A stretch of DNA of 64,000 bases, from positions 195,041 to 259,040 of the forward strand of contig NZ_LQBK01000002.1 of NCBI RefSeq assembly GCF_001483755.1, written 5' to 3'. The position numbers and the translations under genes were made by a program. Shown one piece after another: positions 1 to 52,332 of the stretch (positions are counted from its first letter, which is position 1; every line of letters starts with the position of its first letter). The DNA is from Kocuria rosea subsp. polaris. GTDB taxonomy: Bacteria > Actinomycetota > Actinomycetes > Actinomycetales > Micrococcaceae. Below the pieces are notes generated by a model. It ran no database searches. It had not been told where the DNA came from and saw nothing but the letters and a program-made list of their open reading frames with translations.

Positions 1-88
1 GGGTGCGGCGGCGGCGGTGCGGACGCCCCCATGCTACTCGGGGGTCCGGCGGGCGGATCCGGCGCGCGGGCGGCCCGTCCCGCCCGGA

Positions 89-118
89 TTGCACCCCGCC
101 GCCCGGGTCGCCTAGGAT
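89..118 (+). promoter_or_regulatory. Promoter upstream of tRNA-Trp/secE
   Basis: TTGCAC at 89-94 and TAGGAT at 113-118 are separated by 18 bp, a good sigma-A-type pair in very GC-rich DNA. Transcription would start near 125, about 120 nt before tRNA-Trp, and could continue into secE-nusG. A second possible -10 (TAGAGT, 176-181) has no convincing -35. Bases 1-88 hold no supported gene; 21-47 can form a small imperfect GC hairpin, possibly the end of an upstream unit. Confidence 0.5.
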
Positions 119-244
119 GGTCCACTGGTGTCATCGACGCCTGCTCCGCCGCGCCGTCGCGGCGAGGCCGGGTGGTAGAGTCGGTGACCGGGTCCGAGCG
201 ATCGAGGCCGGTGTTCCGACGCCGGGCGAGCTCGCGAGGCACGT

Positions 245-317
245 AGGGCAGTGGCGCAATTGGTAGCGCAGCGGTCTCCAAAACCGCAGGTTGCAGGTTC
301 GAGTCCTGTCTGCCCTG
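245..317 (+). tRNA. tRNA-Trp (CCA anticodon)
   Basis: A complete 73-nt cloverleaf can be folded by eye. The acceptor stem AGGGCAG (245-251) pairs with CTGCCCT (310-316) and is followed by discriminator G. The D arm contains the usual AATTGGTAG, the anticodon loop CTCCAAA carries CCA, and the T loop is TTCGAGT. The 3' CCA is not encoded. A tRNA-Trp just before secE-nusG is a common arrangement in actinobacteria. It decodes UGG. Confidence 0.96.
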
Positions 318-428
318 CTCCAGTCCGGGGCGGTTCCCGGCACCCCGGACCGGGGTGCCGGGAGCGGCCGCGGCGACGGCGGGCCGGCAGCACCGCGCGG
401 CACGCACGAGTCCACACAGGGAGAGCCG

Positions 429-701
429 ATGTCGCAGACCACCGCCGGCCGGGCGTCGGGACAGCCCCCGGAGCAGGGGGCCGAGAGCCCCCGCGGTGTC
501 TTCGGGCGCCTGTTCCTGTTCCTGCGCCAGGTCGTGGGTGAGCTCCGGAAGGTCGTCACCCCCACCCGGCACGAACTGGTCAACTACGTCCTGGTCGTCC
601 TCGTGTTCGTCGCGTTCATGATGGTGCTCATCTCGGTCCTGGACCTCGGGTTCGGGCAGGCCGCCCTGTGGATCTTCGGGGAGGGGGACGCCGCCGGCTG
701 A
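429..701 (+). CDS. secE: Preprotein translocase subunit SecE
   Basis: SecE is the small essential membrane subunit that clamps SecY in the SecYEG export channel. The 90-residue product has a polar N-terminal part, a conserved amphipathic stretch ([20 protein letters not shown], about residues 36-55) and one transmembrane helix (about residues 56-77). The actinobacterial single-TM form fits this length. The ATG at 429 is chosen because AGGGAG lies 5 nt upstream; an in-frame upstream start at 291 would overlap the tRNA. nusG follows 83 bp downstream, the conserved secE-nusG pair. Confidence 0.97.
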
Positions 702-784
702 TCCGGGCGGCGCACGGACCGGCACGGCCGGCCACCGTGACCCAGCAGAGCACGACATCCACGAAAGAACGTGAGGGAGATCCA

Positions 785-1639
785 GTGACCGAGCACGAGC
801 TCGAAAACGGCACCGAGGCACCGGCCGAGGTCGACCAGCAGGCTCCGGAGCTGCCGGAGGCCGAGACCTCCGTGCAGGAGGACGACTTCGCGGCCGCCCA
901 CGAGCCGGACGAGGCCCCGGCGGCCGCGGACGCGGCTCCCGCCGAGCCGGCCGGCCCCGAGGCCGACGGGCCCGCGGAGGACGAGGTCCCCGCCGAGGAG
1001 GCCCCGGCCGCCGAGGACGAGGCGCCCGCCGTGGACCCCGTCGAGGAGTTCAAGTCGAAGCTGCGCCGCCAGGAGGGTGACTGGTACGTCATCCACACCT
1101 ACGCCGGCTACGAGAACCGCGTGAAGACGAACCTCGAGACCCGCATCCAGTCCCTCAACATGGAGGACGACATCTTCCAGATCGAGGTGCCGATGGAGGA
1201 GGTCGTCGAGATCAAGAACGCCCAGCGCAAGATCGTGCGCCGGGTGCGGATCCCCGGCTACGTCCTGGTGCGGATGAACCTCACCGACGCCTCCTGGGGC
1301 GCGGTCCGCCACACCCCGGGCGTCACCGGCTTCGTCGGACAGGACGCCTACAACCCCGTGCCGCTGCGCCTCGACGAGGTCTTCGAGATGCTCAACCCGG
1401 TCTTCGAGGCCCCGCAGGGCGCGGGCGGCGAGACGGCGGCCCAGCCCAGCGCGCAGCCGCAGGTCGACGTCGACTTCGAGGTCGGCGAGTCCGTCATCGT
1501 CAAGGAGGGCCCGTTCGAGACCCTCCCCGCCACGATCTCCGAGATCAAGGTGGAGTCCCAGCAGCTCGTCGTCCTCGTGTCGATCTTCGAGCGCGAGACC
1601 CCCGTGACCCTCGGCTTCAACCAGGTCTCCAAGATCTGA
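785..1639 (+). CDS. nusG: Transcription termination/antitermination protein NusG
   Basis: NusG binds RNA polymerase and modulates pausing and Rho-dependent termination, and can link transcription to translation. The 284-residue product has a roughly 95-residue acidic, Ala/Glu/Pro-rich N-terminal extension, then the NGN domain (starts near [15 protein letters not shown], about residue 99) and a C-terminal KOW domain (about 230-284, around [17 protein letters not shown]). E. coli NusG is about 180 residues; the extension is typical of actinobacteria. The GTG at 785 is chosen because GAGGGAG precedes it; the longer open frame from 668 lacks a ribosome site and overlaps secE. Confidence 0.97.
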
Positions 1640-1787
1640 GCCCCGCGGGCCGCTCCGGCCCGCCCCAGTTCCCGGCCCCTGCGGCGCATGCTTCGCCGCC
1701 GGGACCGCCCGGCCGCCGCGCCACGGCGGCCACCCGCCGTCGTACGCTCCTGTGCGCCGGTACGTCCAGCAGAAGAAGGACCAGCAC

Positions 1788-2219
1788 ATGGCTCCCAAGA
1801 AGAAGAAGGTCTCCGGCCTCATCAAGCTGCAGATCCAGGCAGGCGCCGCCAACCCGGCGCCCCCCGTGGGCCCGGCCCTCGGTCAGCACGGCGTGAACAT
1901 CATGGAGTTCTGCAAGGCCTACAACGCGGCCACGGAGTCCCAGCGCGGCAACATCGTGCCCGTGGAGATCACGGTCTACGAGGACCGCTCGTTCACCTTC
2001 ATCACGAAGACCCCGCCCGCCGCGCAGCTGATCAAGAAGGCCGCCGGCATCACCAAGGGCTCCGGCGTCCCGCACACCCAGAAGGTCGGCAAGCTCAGCA
2101 TGGACCAGGTGCGCGAGATCGCCGAGACCAAGAAGGAAGACCTCAACGCCAACGACGTCGACGCCGCCGCGAAGATCATCGCCGGCACCGCCCGCTCCAT
2201 GGGCATCGAGGTCGAGTGA
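1788..2219 (+). CDS. rplK: 50S ribosomal protein L11
   Basis: L11 builds the base of the 50S stalk and binds 23S rRNA in the GTPase-associated region. The 143-residue product has the typical N-terminal domain with the Pro-rich helix ([19 protein letters not shown]) and the C-terminal rRNA-binding domain ([15 protein letters not shown] onward). The ATG at 1788 gives the family-standard MAPKKKK start, with AGAAGAAGGA upstream. The 148-bp gap after nusG contains a hairpin near 1679-1700 and a possible -10 (TACGCT, 1743-1748). rplA follows 88 bp later. Confidence 0.98.
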
Positions 2220-2307
2220 TCAGCCTCGGCTGACACCACCCACCGATATTGACGTGGCAGGGCCGAGCGCGGCCCGCAGACCACAACTGCACAAGGAGAA
2301 GAAGCAG

Positions 2308-3015
2308 ATGGCAAAGCGCAGCAAGGCATACCAGGCGGCCGCCGCCAAGATCGACGAGGGCGCGCTGTACGCCCCGGCCGAGGCCGTGGCCCTGGCCAAG
2401 GAGCTCGACACCGCGAAGACCGACTCCACCGTGGAGGTCGTCCTCCGCCTGGGCGTCGACCCCCGCAAGGCCGACCAGATGGTCCGCGGCACCGTGAACC
2501 TGCCCAACGGCACCGGCAAGACCGCCCGCGTCGTCGTCTTCGCGACCGGCGACAAGGCCGCCGCCGCCGAGGAGGCCGGGGCGGACCACGTCGGCTCCGA
2601 CGACCTGATCGCCCGCATCCAGGGCGGCTGGACCGACTTCGACGCCGCCGTGGCGACCCCGGACATGATGGGCAAGGTCGGCCGCCTGGGCAAGGTCCTC
2701 GGTCCCCGCAACCTGATGCCGAACCCCAAGACCGGCACCGTCACCATGGACGTGACCAAGGCCGTCAACGACATCAAGGGCGGCAAGATCGACTTCCGCG
2801 TCGACAAGCACTCGAACCTGCACTTCATCGTGGGCAAGACGTCCTTCGACGTGCAGAAGCTCGCGGAGAACTACGGCGCCGCCCTCGAGGAGATCCTGCG
2901 CCTGAAGCCCTCCGCGTCGAAGGGCCGCTACATCACGAAGGCGACCGTCTCGACCACGTTCGGCCCGGGCATCCCGGTCGACCCGAACGTCACCGAGGTC
3001 GTCGTCGGCGCCTGA
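2308..3015 (+). CDS. rplA: 50S ribosomal protein L1
   Basis: L1 forms the mobile L1 stalk that moves deacylated tRNA out of the E site, and in many bacteria represses its own L11-L1 mRNA. The 235-residue length and the conserved signature ([20 protein letters not shown], about residues 121-140) identify it. The ATG at 2308 follows AAGGAGAAGAAGC and gives the normal MAKRSKAY start. It is cotranscribed with rplK and ended by a strong hairpin 37 bp downstream. Confidence 0.98.
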
Positions 3016-3051
3016 CGCCGTGCACCGGAGCCCGCGGGGCTCCGACGGGTG

Positions 3052-3080
3052 GGGGCCCGGCCGATGCGGCCGGGCCCCTT
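3052..3080 (+). terminator. Hairpin terminator after rplA
   Basis: A perfect 12-bp stem (3052-3063 with 3067-3078) has a 3-nt loop and is followed by TT. It separates the rplKA unit from the acetyltransferase gene. Confidence 0.75.
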
Positions 3081-3160
3081 GCCGTCCGACGGGAGCAGTC
3101 CTCCCACGACCCAGCAGCCGGCGGGAGTCCGCCGGCGCCCACGGAACGGAGATCCCCCAC

Positions 3161-4312
3161 GTGAGCGAGCACCCCCCAGTGCGCATCGAGCAGATGCGCA
3201 TCCCCGACGAGTTCGACGACGCCGCCCAGCAGCTGCTGGGGCGCGTCGCGGAGCTCGTGCGCCGGTCCCGGCAGCACGTGTGGGGGATCTCGGACCTCAC
3301 CGGCGATGCCCAGGAGCTCTACCGGGACCTGCACGACCCCTTCGAACGCGTCGTCGTCCTGCTCGCGTGGACCCAGGACCGGCTCACGGGACGCGCCGAG
3401 GTCCGGATGCCCCTGGTCGCGCTCACCGACTCCGCCCACATCACCGTCGACGTGGACCCCGACGTCACCTCCCAGGGCACCGGCACCGAGCTGCTGGCCG
3501 CCGCCGAGCAGCTCGCCGTGGGGGAGTCCCGGCGGCACCTGCGGATCCAGACCGAGCACCCGGGGCCGCAGGAGATCCAGGGCGACGGCAGCGTCACCGG
3601 GGTCTTCCCCGTGATCACACCGGGCATGGTCGAGTGGGTGGACGCCGCGGACGGCTCGGGCCGGCTGCCGGTGTCCAACCGGCAGACCCGCTTCGCCCTC
3701 AGCGCCGGCTACCGGCTCGAGTCGGTGAGCGACTTCGGGGTGCTGGACGTCCCGCTGCCGCCCCGGAGGGTCGAGGCCCTGCTGCGCGAGGTCGCCGCCT
3801 CGCCGGCGCCGGAGCCCTACCGGATCCACGTCTGGAGCGGGCCCGCCCCCGAGGAACGGCTCGACGAGCTCGCCGCCCTGCACTCGCGGATGGCCGCCGA
3901 CTCCTTCCTGGCCCCCGTGGTCCCCGCCGACCCCGAGCCCTGGGACGCCGAGCGCGTGCGGCGCACCGAGCAGCTGCGCGCCGAGGCGGGCAACCGGTCC
4001 CTCGTGGCGGTGGCCGAGCACGAGCCCAGCGGGCGGCTCGTCGGGATGACCGAGATCGTCCTGGCGGGGGAGGCCCCGCCCATCGGCATGCAGGACGAGA
4101 CCGTGGTCCTGCGCGAGCACCGCCGCCGGTGGCTCGCCACCCGGCTGAAGCTGGCGAACCTGCAGCAGCTCGAGCGGCTGGCGCCGAGCGTGCGCACGGT
4201 CTACTCCTGGAGCCACAGCGGCGACGACCGGATGAGCCGGGTCAACGGGCGACTGGGCTTCCGGGTGGCCGGGCGCAGCGGCGTGTGGGCCCGGGACTTC
4301 CCCGCGGCCTGA
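3161..4312 (+). CDS. GNAT-family N-acetyltransferase (substrate unknown)
   Basis: The 383-residue product resembles two-domain GNAT proteins of actinobacteria. The C-terminal half contains LVGMTEIVLAGE, then ETVVLREHRRRWLATRLKLANLQQLE, which matches the acetyl-CoA-binding loop and helix, and the closing SRVNGRLGFRVAGR strand-helix typical of GNATs. The N-terminal half (about 30-200) looks like a degenerate first GNAT repeat. The GTG at 3161 is preferred because the frame upstream runs into the rplA terminator. It stands between rplA and rplJ, where most bacteria have nothing, with terminators on both sides. The substrate cannot be told from the sequence. Confidence 0.8.
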   Translation: MSEHPPVRIEQMRIPDEFDDAAQQLLGRVAELVRRSRQHVWGISDLTGDAQELYRDLHDPFERVVVLLAWTQDRLTGRAEVRMPLVALTDSAHITVDVDPDVTSQGTGTELLAAAEQLAVGESRRHLRIQTEHPGPQEIQGDGSVTGVFPVITPGMVEWVDAADGSGRLPVSNRQTRFALSAGYRLESVSDFGVLDVPLPPRRVEALLREVAASPAPEPYRIHVWSGPAPEERLDELAALHSRMAADSFLAPVVPADPEPWDAERVRRTEQLRAEAGNRSLVAVAEHEPSGRLVGMTEIVLAGEAPPIGMQDETVVLREHRRRWLATRLKLANLQQLERLAPSVRTVYSWSHSGDDRMSRVNGRLGFRVAGRSGVWARDFPAA

Positions 4313-48033: not shown

Positions 48034-48039
48034 TGTGAG

Positions 48040-48077
48040 CACGCGCACCGGGACCCCGCGGGGTCCCGGTGCGCGTG
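48040..48077 (+). terminator. Terminator after rpsK
   Basis: A 17-18-bp stem (48040-48057 / 48060-48077) starts 6 bp after rpsK. It separates rpsMK from rpoA. Confidence 0.8.
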
Positions 48078-48116
48078 CCGACAACGGACCGGGCACCGGT
48101 CCGCACCCATCAACTG

Positions 48117-48147
48117 TTTTCCACCATTTGCGCGCGTCATATAGCGG
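48117..48147 (+). promoter_or_regulatory. Probable rpoA promoter
   Basis: TTTTCC (48117-48122) and TATAGC (48140-48145) are 17 bp apart in an unusually AT-rich patch. The 11-mer TCATATAGCGG (48137-48147) also occurs upstream of rpoB (8927-8937). The -10 lacks the final T, so the exact hexamer is uncertain. Confidence 0.4.
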
Positions 48148-48170
48148 ATGCCCGCTGAAAGGAAACATCA

Positions 48171-49178
48171 GTGCTCATCGCACAGCGCCCCACCCTCTCT
48201 GAAGAGGTCGTGGCCGACAACCGGTCCCGCTTCGTGATCGAACCGCTCGAGCCCGGCTTCGGCTACACCCTCGGCAACTCCCTCCGCCGCACCCTCCTGT
48301 CCTCGATCCCCGGTGCTGCCGTGACCAGCATCCGGCTCGACGGGGTGCTCCACGAGTTCTCCACCGTGGAGGGCGTCAAGGAGGACGTCTCCGAGGTCAT
48401 CCTCAACATCAAGAAGCTCGCCGTCTCCTCGGAGCAGGACGAGCCCGTCGTCGCCTACCTGCGCAAGCAGGGCCCCGGCGTCGTCACCGCGGCGGACATC
48501 ACGGCCCCCGCCGGCGTGGAGATCCACAACCCGGACCTGCACATCGCGACCCTCAACGCGAAGGGCCAGCTCGAGCTCGAGCTGACCATCGAGCGCGGGC
48601 GCGGCTACGTCTCCGCCGCCCAGAACAAGGCCGGGGACGCGGAGATCGGGCGCATCCCGGTCGACTCGATCTACTCGCCCGTCCTGAAGGTGACCTTCCG
48701 CGTGGAGGCCACCCGTGTGGAGCAGCGCACCGACTTCGACAAGCTGGTCCTGGACGTGGAGACCAAGGAGGCCATCACCCCGCGTGACGCCGTGGCCTCC
48801 GCCGGCACCACCCTGGTCGAGCTGTTCGGTCTCGCCCGGGAGCTCAACACGGCCGCCGAGGGCATCGAGATCGGGCCCTCGCCGACCGATGCCGCGATGG
48901 CCGCCGACATGGCGCTGCCCATCGAGGACCTCGAGCTCACCGTGCGGTCCTACAACTGCCTCAAGCGCGAGGGCATCCACACCGTGGGTGAGCTCGTGGG
49001 CCGTTCCGAGGCGGACCTGATGGACATCCGCAACTTCGGCGCCAAGTCGATCGACGAGGTCAAGGCCAAGCTCGTCGACCTCGGGCTGTCCCTCAAGGAC
49101 TCGCCCCCCGGCTTCGACCTCGCCGCTCGCGCCGCCGCGATCGACGACGAGAACCCGTTCGACGACGACGACCACTAG
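48171..49178 (+). CDS. rpoA: DNA-directed RNA polymerase subunit alpha
   Basis: RpoA dimerises to start RNA polymerase assembly; its C-terminal domain binds UP elements and activators. The 335-residue product has the N-terminal domain ([28 protein letters not shown]) and the C-terminal helix-hairpin-helix domain ([32 protein letters not shown]), followed by an acidic tail. The GTG at 48171 has GAAAGGAA upstream. rplQ follows. Confidence 0.98.
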
Positions 49179-49245
49179 TCCTTCCCGCTGAAGTCCCACC
49201 GGCCGCCCGGCACGGACGGGACGAACTTCCAGGAGATCAACAACC

Positions 49246-50007
49246 ATGCCTACTCCCACCAAGGGACCCCGCCTCGGAGGCGGACCCGCGCACGAGCGCC
49301 TGATGCTGGCGAACCTGTCGCAGCAGCTGTTCGAGCACAAGCGCATCACCACCACCGTGACGAAGGCGAAGCGGATGCGTCCCTACGCCGAGCGCCTGAT
49401 CACCTTCGCCAAGCGCGGTGACCTGGCCGCCCGCCGTCGCGTGCTGGCGCAACTGAGCGACAAGTCCGTGGTGCACGAGCTGTTCACGACCATCGCCTCG
49501 GCGATGGAGGACCGCAACGGCGGCTACACCCGGATCACGAAGATCGGCAACCGCAAGGGCGACAACGCCCCCATGGCCGTGATCGAGCTCGTGATGGAGC
49601 CCGTCGCGACCAAGGCCACCGTCGCCGAGGCCGAGCGCGCCACCGAGAAGGCCGCCCCGGCCCCCGCCGCCCCGGTCGACACCCCGGCCGACTCCACCGC
49701 CGGTGAGGTCGCCGCCGAGGAGATCCCCGCCGACGAGCAGGCCCCCGAGGTCGGCTCCGAGCAGGCCGCCGAGGTCGCCGCCGAGAACACCGACGCGGAG
49801 TTCCCCGGCTCGCACGCCCCGCTCGAGTCCGGCGAGGCCCCCGAGGGCTTCGAGGTCAAGGGCAACAAGAACTCGATGAAGTACCACGTGCCCGGCTCGC
49901 GCTGGTACACGGGGACCACCGCCGAGATCTGGTTCGACTCCCCGGCCAACGCCGAGGCCGCCGGCTTCCAGCCGGCCGGTGGCGCCGCCGCGCAGAAGAT
50001 GCGCTGA
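49246..50007 (+). CDS. rplQ: 50S ribosomal protein L17 with extra C-terminal domain
   Basis: Residues 1 to about 117 are a normal L17 ([22 protein letters not shown] and on to MAVIELVME), a tunnel-exit protein. After it comes an acidic Ala/Glu/Pro linker (about 118-190) and a C-terminal module (about 195-253: [22 protein letters not shown] then [18 protein letters not shown]). The module resembles the small domain NCBI names sunset in other actinobacterial proteins. E. coli L17 has 127 residues; this has 253. Similar fusions are known to me in Micrococcales. What the module does is unknown. Confidence 0.96.
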
Positions 50008-50032
50008 CCGGGCCCGCTCGGACAGACACCGT

Positions 50033-50065
50033 GACGCCGCCGGGGACCTGGTCCCCGGCGGCGTC
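50033..50065 (+). terminator. Terminator after rplQ
   Basis: A perfect 15-bp stem (50033-50047 / 50051-50065) with the loop CTG lies 25 bp after rplQ. Confidence 0.75.
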
Positions 50066-50119
50066 GTCGTGCCCGCCGACCCCCTGACCACACCCCAGGA
50101 GCACCCCCAGGAGCTGAGC

Positions 50120-51088
50120 ATGAGCCCGTCCGTCCCCGCCGTGCGCGTGAGGATCGACCTCGCCTACGACGGCGCGCCGTTCTCCGGGTGGGCCCGGCAG
50201 CCGGGGCTGCCCACCGTCCAGGGAGCCCTGGAGGACGCCCTCGCCGTGCTGGTCCGCCGGGACGTGCGGGTCGCGGTGGCCGGGCGGACGGACACGGGCG
50301 TGCACGCGCGCGGCCAGGTGGTGCACCTGGACCTCGCGCCGGCGGAGTGGGCCGCGCTGGCCCGCGGCCGGGACGAGGACCCGGCGCTCGCCCTCGAGCG
50401 CCGCCTGACCGGGGCGCTGGCGCACGTCCTGGGCCGCGGCCGCCGGGAGCGGGGGCTGCCGGAGTGCCCGGGGGCGGTGGTCGTCCGCCGCGCGAGCGCC
50501 GCCCCGGCCGGCTTCGACGCCCGCTTCTCCGCCGTCTCCCGCCGGTACAGCTACCGGATCGACGACGGCGCGGCGGGCCGGGACCCGCTGACCCGGCACC
50601 TGACGTGGTGGTCGAAGGACGTGCTCGACGTCCCCGTGATGGCCGGGGCGGTGCGGGAGCTGGTGGGCCTGCACGACTTCCTGTCCTTCTGCCGCCCGCG
50701 CGAGGGCGCCACCACGGTGCGGGAGGTCCTGGACGTGTCCGTCGCCCGGGACCCCGGCGGGCTGGTGGTGCTGGAGATCGAGGCGGACGCCTTCTGCCAC
50801 CACATGGTCCGCTCCGTCGTCGGCGCGGCCGCGCGCGTGGGCGCGGGCCGCGAGGACCCCGACTGGCTCGGCCGGCGGCTCGCGGAGCGGGTCCGGGACG
50901 CCCGGGTGCTGATGGCCCCGGCGCACGCCCTCGTGCTCGAGGAGGTCCGCTACCCGGGGGACGCCGCCCTGGGGGAGCGGGCCGAGCGCACCCGGGCGCT
51001 GCGCGATCCCGTGGGTCCCCGCCGGCCGCCCCGGGACGGGGACGGGCCGGCGGGCGCCGGCGGTCCCGGCCGCCCGCGGGGAGATTGA
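50120..51088 (+). CDS. truA: tRNA pseudouridine(38-40) synthase TruA
   Basis: TruA makes pseudouridine at positions 38-40 of the tRNA anticodon arm. The 322-residue product has RIDLAYDGAPFSGWARQPGLPTVQG and the catalytic Asp in AGRTDTGVHARGQV. FCHHMVRSVVGAA is the conserved C-terminal motif. The C-terminal tail (about 290-322) is Pro/Arg/Gly-rich and divergent. The ATG at 50120 has AGGAG 5-6 nt upstream. rplQ-truA-rplM-rpsI is a common order. Confidence 0.95.
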   Translation: MSPSVPAVRVRIDLAYDGAPFSGWARQPGLPTVQGALEDALAVLVRRDVRVAVAGRTDTGVHARGQVVHLDLAPAEWAALARGRDEDPALALERRLTGALAHVLGRGRRERGLPECPGAVVVRRASAAPAGFDARFSAVSRRYSYRIDDGAAGRDPLTRHLTWWSKDVLDVPVMAGAVRELVGLHDFLSFCRPREGATTVREVLDVSVARDPGGLVVLEIEADAFCHHMVRSVVGAAARVGAGREDPDWLGRRLAERVRDARVLMAPAHALVLEEVRYPGDAALGERAERTRALRDPVGPRRPPRDGDGPAGAGGPGRPRGD

Positions 51089-51118
51089 CCGCCGGATCCT
51101 CCGGGTGTATGGCCCGAG

Positions 51119-51147
51119 TGGTCAACGGCCGCTCCATCCGGTAACGT
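51119..51147 (+). promoter_or_regulatory. Promoter of rplM-rpsI
   Basis: TGGTCA (51119-51124) and TAACGT (51142-51147) are spaced by 17 bp. The leader to rplM is about 195 nt; no known motif was recognised in it. Confidence 0.6.
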
Positions 51148-51348
51148 GGGGTGCTGTTGTGCGTGTCCCGCCTCGGTTCACGTGTACCCGGATCCGCCGT
51201 CCAGTTGCAGGACGCATGGCGGTCCGGTGCACCGGGGTCTCGGGCACCGGATGCAGCTCGGCCCTCACCCGAGCCCCGGACGGCACACCGAGAAACGGCG
51301 TGATCCCAACTAGCGCCACCGAGATAACCCGAACGAAGGCAAACTAAC

Positions 51349-51792
51349 GTGCGTACGTACACCCCGAAGCCCGGTGACATCCAGCGCCAGTGGCACGTCA
51401 TCGATGCCACCGACGTCGTCCTGGGTCGTCTTGCCAGCCAGACCGCAACGCTGCTGCGCGGAAAGCACAAGCCGACCTTTGCTCCCCACGTGGACGCCGG
51501 TGATTTCGTCATCATCATCAACGCCGAGAAGGTGGCCCTGACCGGCTCCAAGCTCGAGAAGAAGCGGGCCTACCGCCACTCCGGCTACCCGGGCGGGCTC
51601 AAGTCCAGCTCCTACGCCGAGCTGCTGGAGAAGCACCCGGTCCGCGCCGTGGAGAAGGCCATCCGTGGCATGCTCCCGAAGAACAAGCTGGCCGCCCAGC
51701 AGATGTCCAAGCTCAAGGTCTACGCCGGCCCGGAGCACCCGCACGGTGCCCAGCAGCCGCAGACCTTCGAGTTCACCCAGGTCGCCCAGTAA
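51349..51792 (+). CDS. rplM: 50S ribosomal protein L13
   Basis: L13 is an early 50S assembly protein. The 147-residue product has [39 protein letters not shown] and ends with the [12 protein letters not shown] motif. The GTG at 51349 is the actinobacterial start. rpsI follows 33 bp later. Confidence 0.98.
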
Positions 51793-51825: not shown

Positions 51826-52332
51826 GTGGCTCAGAATACTGAAGAGCAGAACATCGTGGACGGCGAGGAGCAGCTGAGCAGCTACACCTCCGAGTCCGCC
51901 CCCGCCGAGGAGACCGAGGTCGCCGCCGAGCGCCCGGCCCTGACCGTCTCCGGCCAGGCCGTCGGCCGCCGCAAGGAGGCCGTGGCCCGCGTGCGCGTCG
52001 TCCCCGGCTCCGGCCAGTGGACCGTGAACGGCCGCACCCTGGAGAACTACTTCCCGAACAAGCTGCACCAGCAGGAGGTCAACGACCCCTTCAAGGTGCT
52101 CGAGCTCGAGGGCGCCTACGACGTCATCGCCCGCATCCACGGCGGCGGCCCCTCCGGCCAGGCCGGCGCCCTGCGCCACGGCGTGGCGCGCGCGCTGAAC
52201 GAGATCGACGTGGAGAACAACCGCCCGACCCTCAAGAAGGCCGGCTTCCTGACGCGCGACCCGCGCGTCATCGAGCGCAAGAAGGCCGGGCTCAAGAAGG
52301 CCCGCAAGGCCCCGCAGTACTCGAAGCGCTGA
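51826..52332 (+). CDS. rpsI: 30S ribosomal protein S9
   Basis: S9 reaches the P-site tRNA with its C-terminal SKR. The 168-residue product has a roughly 40-residue acidic N-terminal extension, then [25 protein letters not shown] and the end [11 protein letters not shown]. The GTG start follows AGCGAGGAA. A 20-bp terminator follows. Confidence 0.98.

Follow-up and report, generated by a model that had tools for sequence, protein, structure and literature searches.

The rplQ gene of Kocuria rosea subsp. polaris raises the question of why ribosomal protein L17 (bL17) should carry a second module at its C terminus and what that module might do. In the window, by which we mean the whole stretch of 64,000 nucleotides analyzed here, the rplQ open reading frame (ORF) occupies positions 49246 to 50007 (plus strand), starts with ATG, and has a Shine-Dalgarno-like AGGAG, read from the sequence, 5' of it at 49231 to 49235 (plus strand). 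The product has 253 amino acids versus 112 positions in the generic L17 model, which agrees with the original prediction that the protein has twice the normal L17 length.

Layout of the rplQ product

We divided the product into four parts, all on the plus strand. A bL17 core spans residues 1 to 120 (49246 to 49605), based on its match to PF01196 and on pLDDT values of 86 to 97 in the blocks covering residues 11 to 120. An acidic Ala/Glu/Pro linker of 66 residues follows (residues 121 to 186; 49606 to 49803), with a net charge of -13 by charge count. The C-terminal module covers residues 187 to 245 (49804 to 49980), as delimited by AlphaFold2 confidence, dN/dS, and freedom from indels, and the ORF ends with eight further residues (246 to 253) and the stop codon (49981 to 50007). 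Pfam matched Ribosomal_L17 (PF01196) at residues 20 to 116 (132.9 bits versus a cutoff of 27; E value, 8.1e-39) and nothing else in the product.

Within the module, the NCBIfam profile NF051437, the sunset domain, matched residues 204 to 245 (49855 to 49980, plus strand) over positions 1 to 42 of its 42 (70.5 bits versus a cutoff of 27; E value, 8.5e-20). The whole product scored 354.9 bits against NF051448, "50S ribosomal protein L17, sunset domain variant" (cutoff, 280), with residues 1 to 245 aligned to positions 1 to 229 of 229; the entire architecture was matched, and we saw no difference. The L17-sunset fusion is already named in NCBIfam, and by profile score the rplQ product is a member of NF051448. 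Other NCBIfam variants place the same module on other host proteins: NF051449 (L4), NF051450 (L20), NF051451 (S2), and NF051433 (ArfC).

AlphaFold2 modeled residues 185 to 253, with 68 related rows, at a mean pLDDT of 88.8. In the full-length model, the core and the module were confident and the linker was not: residues 123 to 136 formed a helix, and residues 141 to 180 were of low confidence (pLDDT, 41 to 52), consistent with the flexible tether that had been predicted. The pTM of this model was 0.48, and we therefore do not use it to infer how the module packs against L17. The models supported a folded module on a tether predicted to be disordered and acidic. The proposed architecture of L17, acidic linker, and C-terminal module was borne out by PF01196, the net charge of -13, NF051437, NF051448, and all 27 Kocuria ORFs described below.

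The gene lies in what we take to be an S13-S11-rpoA-L17 run. By eye, the ORF 5' of rplQ (48171 to 49178) is presumably rpoA and the one 3' of it (49979 to 51088) presumably truA-like. The gap between S11 and rpoA (48034 to 48170 in the window) lacks rpsD (S4), unlike in Tsukamurella, and the single S4 match in this genome is on a different contig (positions 36593 to 36850 of contig C3 of genome G000). Long antisense ORFs cross rplQ on the minus strand (49237 to 50121 and 49524 to 51551); as the DNA is GC rich, they are in all likelihood shadow frames. The S9 ORF (51826 to 52332) has an acidic N-terminal extension of about 45 residues by eye, which resembles the 46-residue uS9 extension of Cutibacterium acnes described in excerpts of PMC10085706.

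Conservation and spread of the sunset domain

The module's best named matches were from Kocuria, with up to 97% identity among the best 80 of 397 loci, from which this genome's own copy is possibly missing. All 27 genomes of the genus had one sunset match (E value up to 0.01) and one L17 match, and in all 27 the ORFs read as L17 plus module, the frames of the two matches being of equal length when compared by eye. The only PF01196-type match in the genome of the window was rplQ. In Kocuria, the only L17 gene bears the only sunset domain (27/27 genomes), which is a new observation here. Because this single L17 gene carries the module, every Kocuria ribosome should carry it unless it is cleaved.

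Among the 27 Kocuria sequences, the median pairwise dN/dS was 0.143 for the core, 0.343 for the linker, and 0.145 for the module, as determined from 349, 320, and 324 of 351 pairs, respectively, which are not independent of each other. Amino acid identity followed the same order of parts (0.899, 0.627, and 0.863), and indels occurred in the linker only. The module is constrained as strongly as the L17 core.

The scan of the order covered 396 genomes, of which 118 had a sunset match and 278 had none at an E value of 0.001; in a sample of 396 genomes from the phylum, 39 had a match (34 over the cutoff) and 357 had none at the same threshold. The module is missing from most genomes scanned and must therefore be dispensable for ribosomes as such. 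We classified 109 of the 118 match-bearing genomes of the order, those with the stronger matches, and in 89 of the 109 one or more ribosomal proteins bore the module. Among the matches listed, 150 distinct ORFs were classified (locus L003, a repeat of L001, was excluded): 56 L17, 37 L4, 9 L20, 4 NuoE, 3 S16, and 41 others. L17 hosts were named by phmmer and the other groups by BLAST clustering followed by NCBIfam on a subset (5/37 L4, 5/9 L20, 1/4 NuoE, and 1/3 S16). All five L4 hosts and all five L20 hosts tested passed their sunset-variant models; the one NuoE host and the one bS16 host tested, together with two uL22 hosts, were over the cutoff for the generic sunset domain only and matched no sunset-variant model. 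The uL22 hosts (L234 and L236), named by NCBIfam and Pfam, come from another family of the phylum. We met no uS2 host among the ORFs examined, though NCBIfam has a uS2 model.

The 41 other hosts comprised 1 pyrophosphatase, 18 Cys-free single hosts, and 22 Cys-type hosts. The membrane pyrophosphatase (L061, positions 1 to 3342) has two tandem C-terminal sunset domains and is truncated by the edge of the locus, which leaves it below full-length cutoffs; it passed ArfC_sunset by summed score (120 versus 100). A hydrophobic N-terminal stretch was present in 12 of the 18 Cys-free single hosts, in the part examined, and shared neighbor genes exist for the membrane-anchored hosts. Pfam matches among the exported hosts examined included SNase (two hosts), choline-binding repeats (one), and GmrSD_C (one). 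The four NuoE hosts of complex I (L008, L021, L042, and L106) have both a long low-complexity tail and a sunset domain.

The window's own family has 27 genomes with a match, of which we classified 24: 9 had the module on L17 (one of them also on L4), 9 on L20, and 1 on L4, and 5 had membrane-anchored sunset copies only. Several genomes of the order had the module on two ribosomal proteins, and G150 and G277 had it on three. The named loci, taken as the best 80 of 397 in a search with L17 and L4 modules, are a biased sample (61 L17 and 19 L4 hosts). The module ended no more than 27 residues from the C terminus in 256 of 256 ORFs, with some species counted twice, and the tether before it had 47 to 98 residues in the 50 of 56 L17 hosts in which it could be measured. 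An L17-sunset gene close to actinobacterial ones was also seen in a MAG titled Acidobacteria (L225), perhaps through contamination, and a Tsukamurella record labeled plasmid 22 (NZ_LR134464.1; L296) carries rpsK-rpsD-rpoA-rplQ and is perhaps a piece of chromosome.

These surveys substantiated the likeness that had been proposed between the module and a domain of other actinobacterial proteins, some of them secreted (order scan, Pfam, and signal-peptide rule). The profile search proposed alongside it identified residues 204 to 245 as the sunset domain and found relatives outside L17. The original prediction had also suggested that a tether on L17 could place the module where nascent chains emerge. 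As a general function this was not supported, because other hosts of the module belong to the large subunit (uL4, bL20, and uL22), to the small subunit (bS16), or to no ribosome at all (NuoE and a membrane pyrophosphatase).

The module is also present in a ribosome of known structure. In uL4 of C. acnes (PDB 8crx, chain e; six PDB entries share the sequence), it lies at residues 237 to 294 (E value, 8.8e-25 to the module profile), so that the host is uL4 in C. acnes and bL17 in Kocuria. Excerpts of PMC10085706, the paper to which 8CRX belongs, describe a solvent-exposed uL4 extension that exceeds its E. coli counterpart by 100 residues, has no cryo-EM density, and is "likely disordered." Absent density in that account fits either flexibility or loss. 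The words "sunset" and "Ada" are absent from the text of PMC10085706, and the excerpts of PMC13392368 held nothing bearing on the module. Among the matches listed, we found no open-access papers on the sunset module, and "sunset domain" itself led to one unrelated paper.

A tree of 109 modules implied at least 13 host changes, in a weakly resolved topology (63 columns; 46 of 102 inner branches open). We compared 18 pairs of ribosomal protein modules that share a genome; in 5 of them, the two modules resembled each other more closely than in any cross-host pair involving other genomes of the family, most strongly in G094 (97% versus at most 73%) and G136 (87% versus at most 59%), followed by G249 (83%), G229 (81%), and G235 (75%). 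The other 13 of the 18 pairs gave no sign of recent copying (e.g., G315, 51%). A survey in which all 40 genomes had an L17 match yielded 30 loci, of which 22 were module free, 3 had the module, and 5 were unparsed; the 22 module-free L17s of these relatives have similar acidic tails of 40 to 92 residues with charges of -7 to -23. The shared tail suggests that the module was gained on, or lost from, a preexisting tail, and it weakens the idea that the linker was purpose-made as a tether for the module. We found no case for a phage origin (18 phage records by tblastn, all with E values of 5 to 9) or for a plasmid origin (9 plasmid records by tblastn, mostly weak: Tsukamurella rplQ at 3e-10, Arthrobacter at 3e-8, six thermonuclease matches at 6 to 7, and one Priestia match at 2).

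Two classes of module and a weak likeness to Ada

The Cys-free and Cys-type profiles align with each other (99.5% probability; E value, 3e-22). Two Cys columns were present in 21 of 21 Cys-type modules counted, one of the 22 being left out because it fell below the 35-bit limit. Cys occurred in 0 of 129 modules of the Cys-free class, in which Trp (126 modules) or Tyr (3 modules) occupies the second Cys column. With a crude signal-peptide rule, positives numbered 20/22 Cys-type hosts, 2/56 L17, 0/37 L4, 1/3 S16, 0/4 NuoE, 0/9 L20, and 13/19 others; the "secreted" class was assigned by host cluster after the sequences had been inspected, and the rule does not distinguish a signal peptide from the N-terminal membrane stretch present in many of the others. 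From these residues we infer that the exported form of the domain probably has a disulfide and that the cytosolic form has Trp in its place. A zinc site in the module was rejected, since neither the Cys-free class nor the module of the window has cysteines.

Structure comparison of the module model pointed, weakly, to the N-domain of Ada. The two best Foldseek matches were Ada N-domains (E value, 0.61), and all three VIA matches with a Z score of at least 2 (1u8b, 1wpk, and 1zgw) were Ada N-domains with Z scores of 3.4 to 3.8 over 55 to 58 residues; the best had a Z score of 3.8 and a root mean square deviation of 3.9 over 58 residues. At the sequence level, PF02805 (Ada_Zn_binding; cutoff, 23) had no match at an E value of 10 in the rplQ product and none in its module alone. 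It was the only Pfam family matched in both sets of modules, by 9 of 69 Cys-free (best E value, 0.001) and 6 of 21 Cys-type modules (0.0018); an anti-LPS family was matched by just as many Cys-type modules (6/21; best E value, 0.016). The hhalign probability versus Ada was 14% for the Cys-free profile and 74.5% for the Cys-type profile.

With a model built from nine Ada domains, median module scores exceeded those of shuffled and reversed controls, with overlapping distributions: 9.1 bits versus 0.0 for shuffles in Cys-type modules and 3.1 versus -1.2 in L17 modules. Of the Cys-type shuffles, 100 of 210 scored above 0, with a maximum of 7.4 versus 16.3 for real modules, and Cys-free shuffles reached 10.0 versus 14.2. 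The four cysteines of Ada serve as zinc ligands. All four were invariant in the nine Ada domains, whereas Cys-free sunset modules have none. On this weak likeness, the sunset module is probably a distant, Cys-less relative of the Ada domain and not a member of that family.

Possible roles of the module on ribosomes

The C-terminal position, the acidic tether, the strong constraint, and the interchangeable hosts fit a tethered docking domain. We propose, with a probability of about 40%, that the sunset module of the cytosolic, Cys-free class is a protein interaction domain that a flexible, acidic linker tethers to its host, giving the ribosomes of this lineage a free-swinging handle for a common partner. 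The tether would let the module swing free of the ribosome, the module would dock the ribosome to the partner, and the point of attachment would matter little provided that it faces solvent. We infer that the module binds something, that the partner is protein and not RNA, and that the attachment site is of little importance. The mean module charge was -4.0 on L17, -1.8 on L20, -1.1 on L4, and 0.0 on NuoE, and the stretch before the module was acidic on average in all Cys-free classes except the L20 hosts (+0.4). Cytosolic modules that are acidic on average speak against contact with RNA, which makes RNA binding less likely. With one sunset gene per Kocuria genome, no sunset domain is required of the partner, which would be either some other kind of molecule or the same module on an adjacent ribosome. 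A single partner for all classes is unlikely, since hosts that are secreted or membrane anchored may act in other compartments. Counting against docking, 13 of the 18 within-genome pairs lack recent copying, many relatives lack the module, and the fold could be a stability cap.

A wider form of the docking proposal seems to us somewhat doubtful. It holds that the module is a mobile C-terminal handle in Actinomycetota, a Cys-free cytosolic edition of a domain that is mostly secreted and probably disulfide bonded; that copies of it have been added to five or more ribosomal proteins (bL17, uL4, bL20, bS16, and uL22, with uS2 as a sixth by its NCBIfam model), NuoE, and a membrane pyrophosphatase; and that it serves to dock or cluster ribosomes, along with other large assemblies, whatever the attachment site. 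Ribosome organization by a portable handle was not found in the open-access papers searched.

It is unlikely that the module is only an inert or stabilizing cap that shields the tail from proteolysis or arose by hitchhiking. Its C-terminal place in all 256 ORFs and its absence at an E value of 0.001 from 278 of 396 genomes of the order would suit a cap; however, its constraint equals that of the L17 core, 22 module-free L17s retain their acidic tails, and it has been gained repeatedly on new hosts. Less likely again is homotypic clustering, in which sunset domains would bind each other and gather ribosomes, for example, in stationary phase, even though Kocuria keeps one sunset gene in 27 of 27 genomes, so that no second sunset protein is available, and the genomes with the module on two or three ribosomal proteins are also in its favor. 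Nucleic acid binding inherited from an Ada-type DNA-binding domain is improbable: the three VIA matches, the PF02805 matches in 9/69 Cys-free and 6/21 Cys-type modules, and the two exported copies examined that sit on SNase-type nucleases (L239 and L251) are set against Cys-free modules that have no Cys (0/129) and whose mean charge, NuoE hosts apart, is negative, and against an hhalign probability of only 14% for their profile versus Ada.

Least probable is a tunnel exit device, in which the module, close to L17, would sample nascent chains or recruit an exit factor. In its favor, bL17 and uL22 lie near the exit in bacterial ribosomes and the L17 tethers have 47 to 98 residues; against it, the same module is found on bL20 (in 9 of the 24 genomes classified in the window's family), bS16, NuoE, and the membrane pyrophosphatase. 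The bL17, uL22, and uL4 versions alone may have such a role, which is not needed to explain the module.

For C. acnes, these results mean that a uL4 extension reported as likely disordered contains a conserved, predicted-folded domain and is not just a random tail. The single copy in Kocuria makes a clean deletion test of the docking proposal possible. If the module does dock ribosomes, then this lineage would have a genetically portable means of positioning whole ribosomes in which the point of attachment is freely exchanged.
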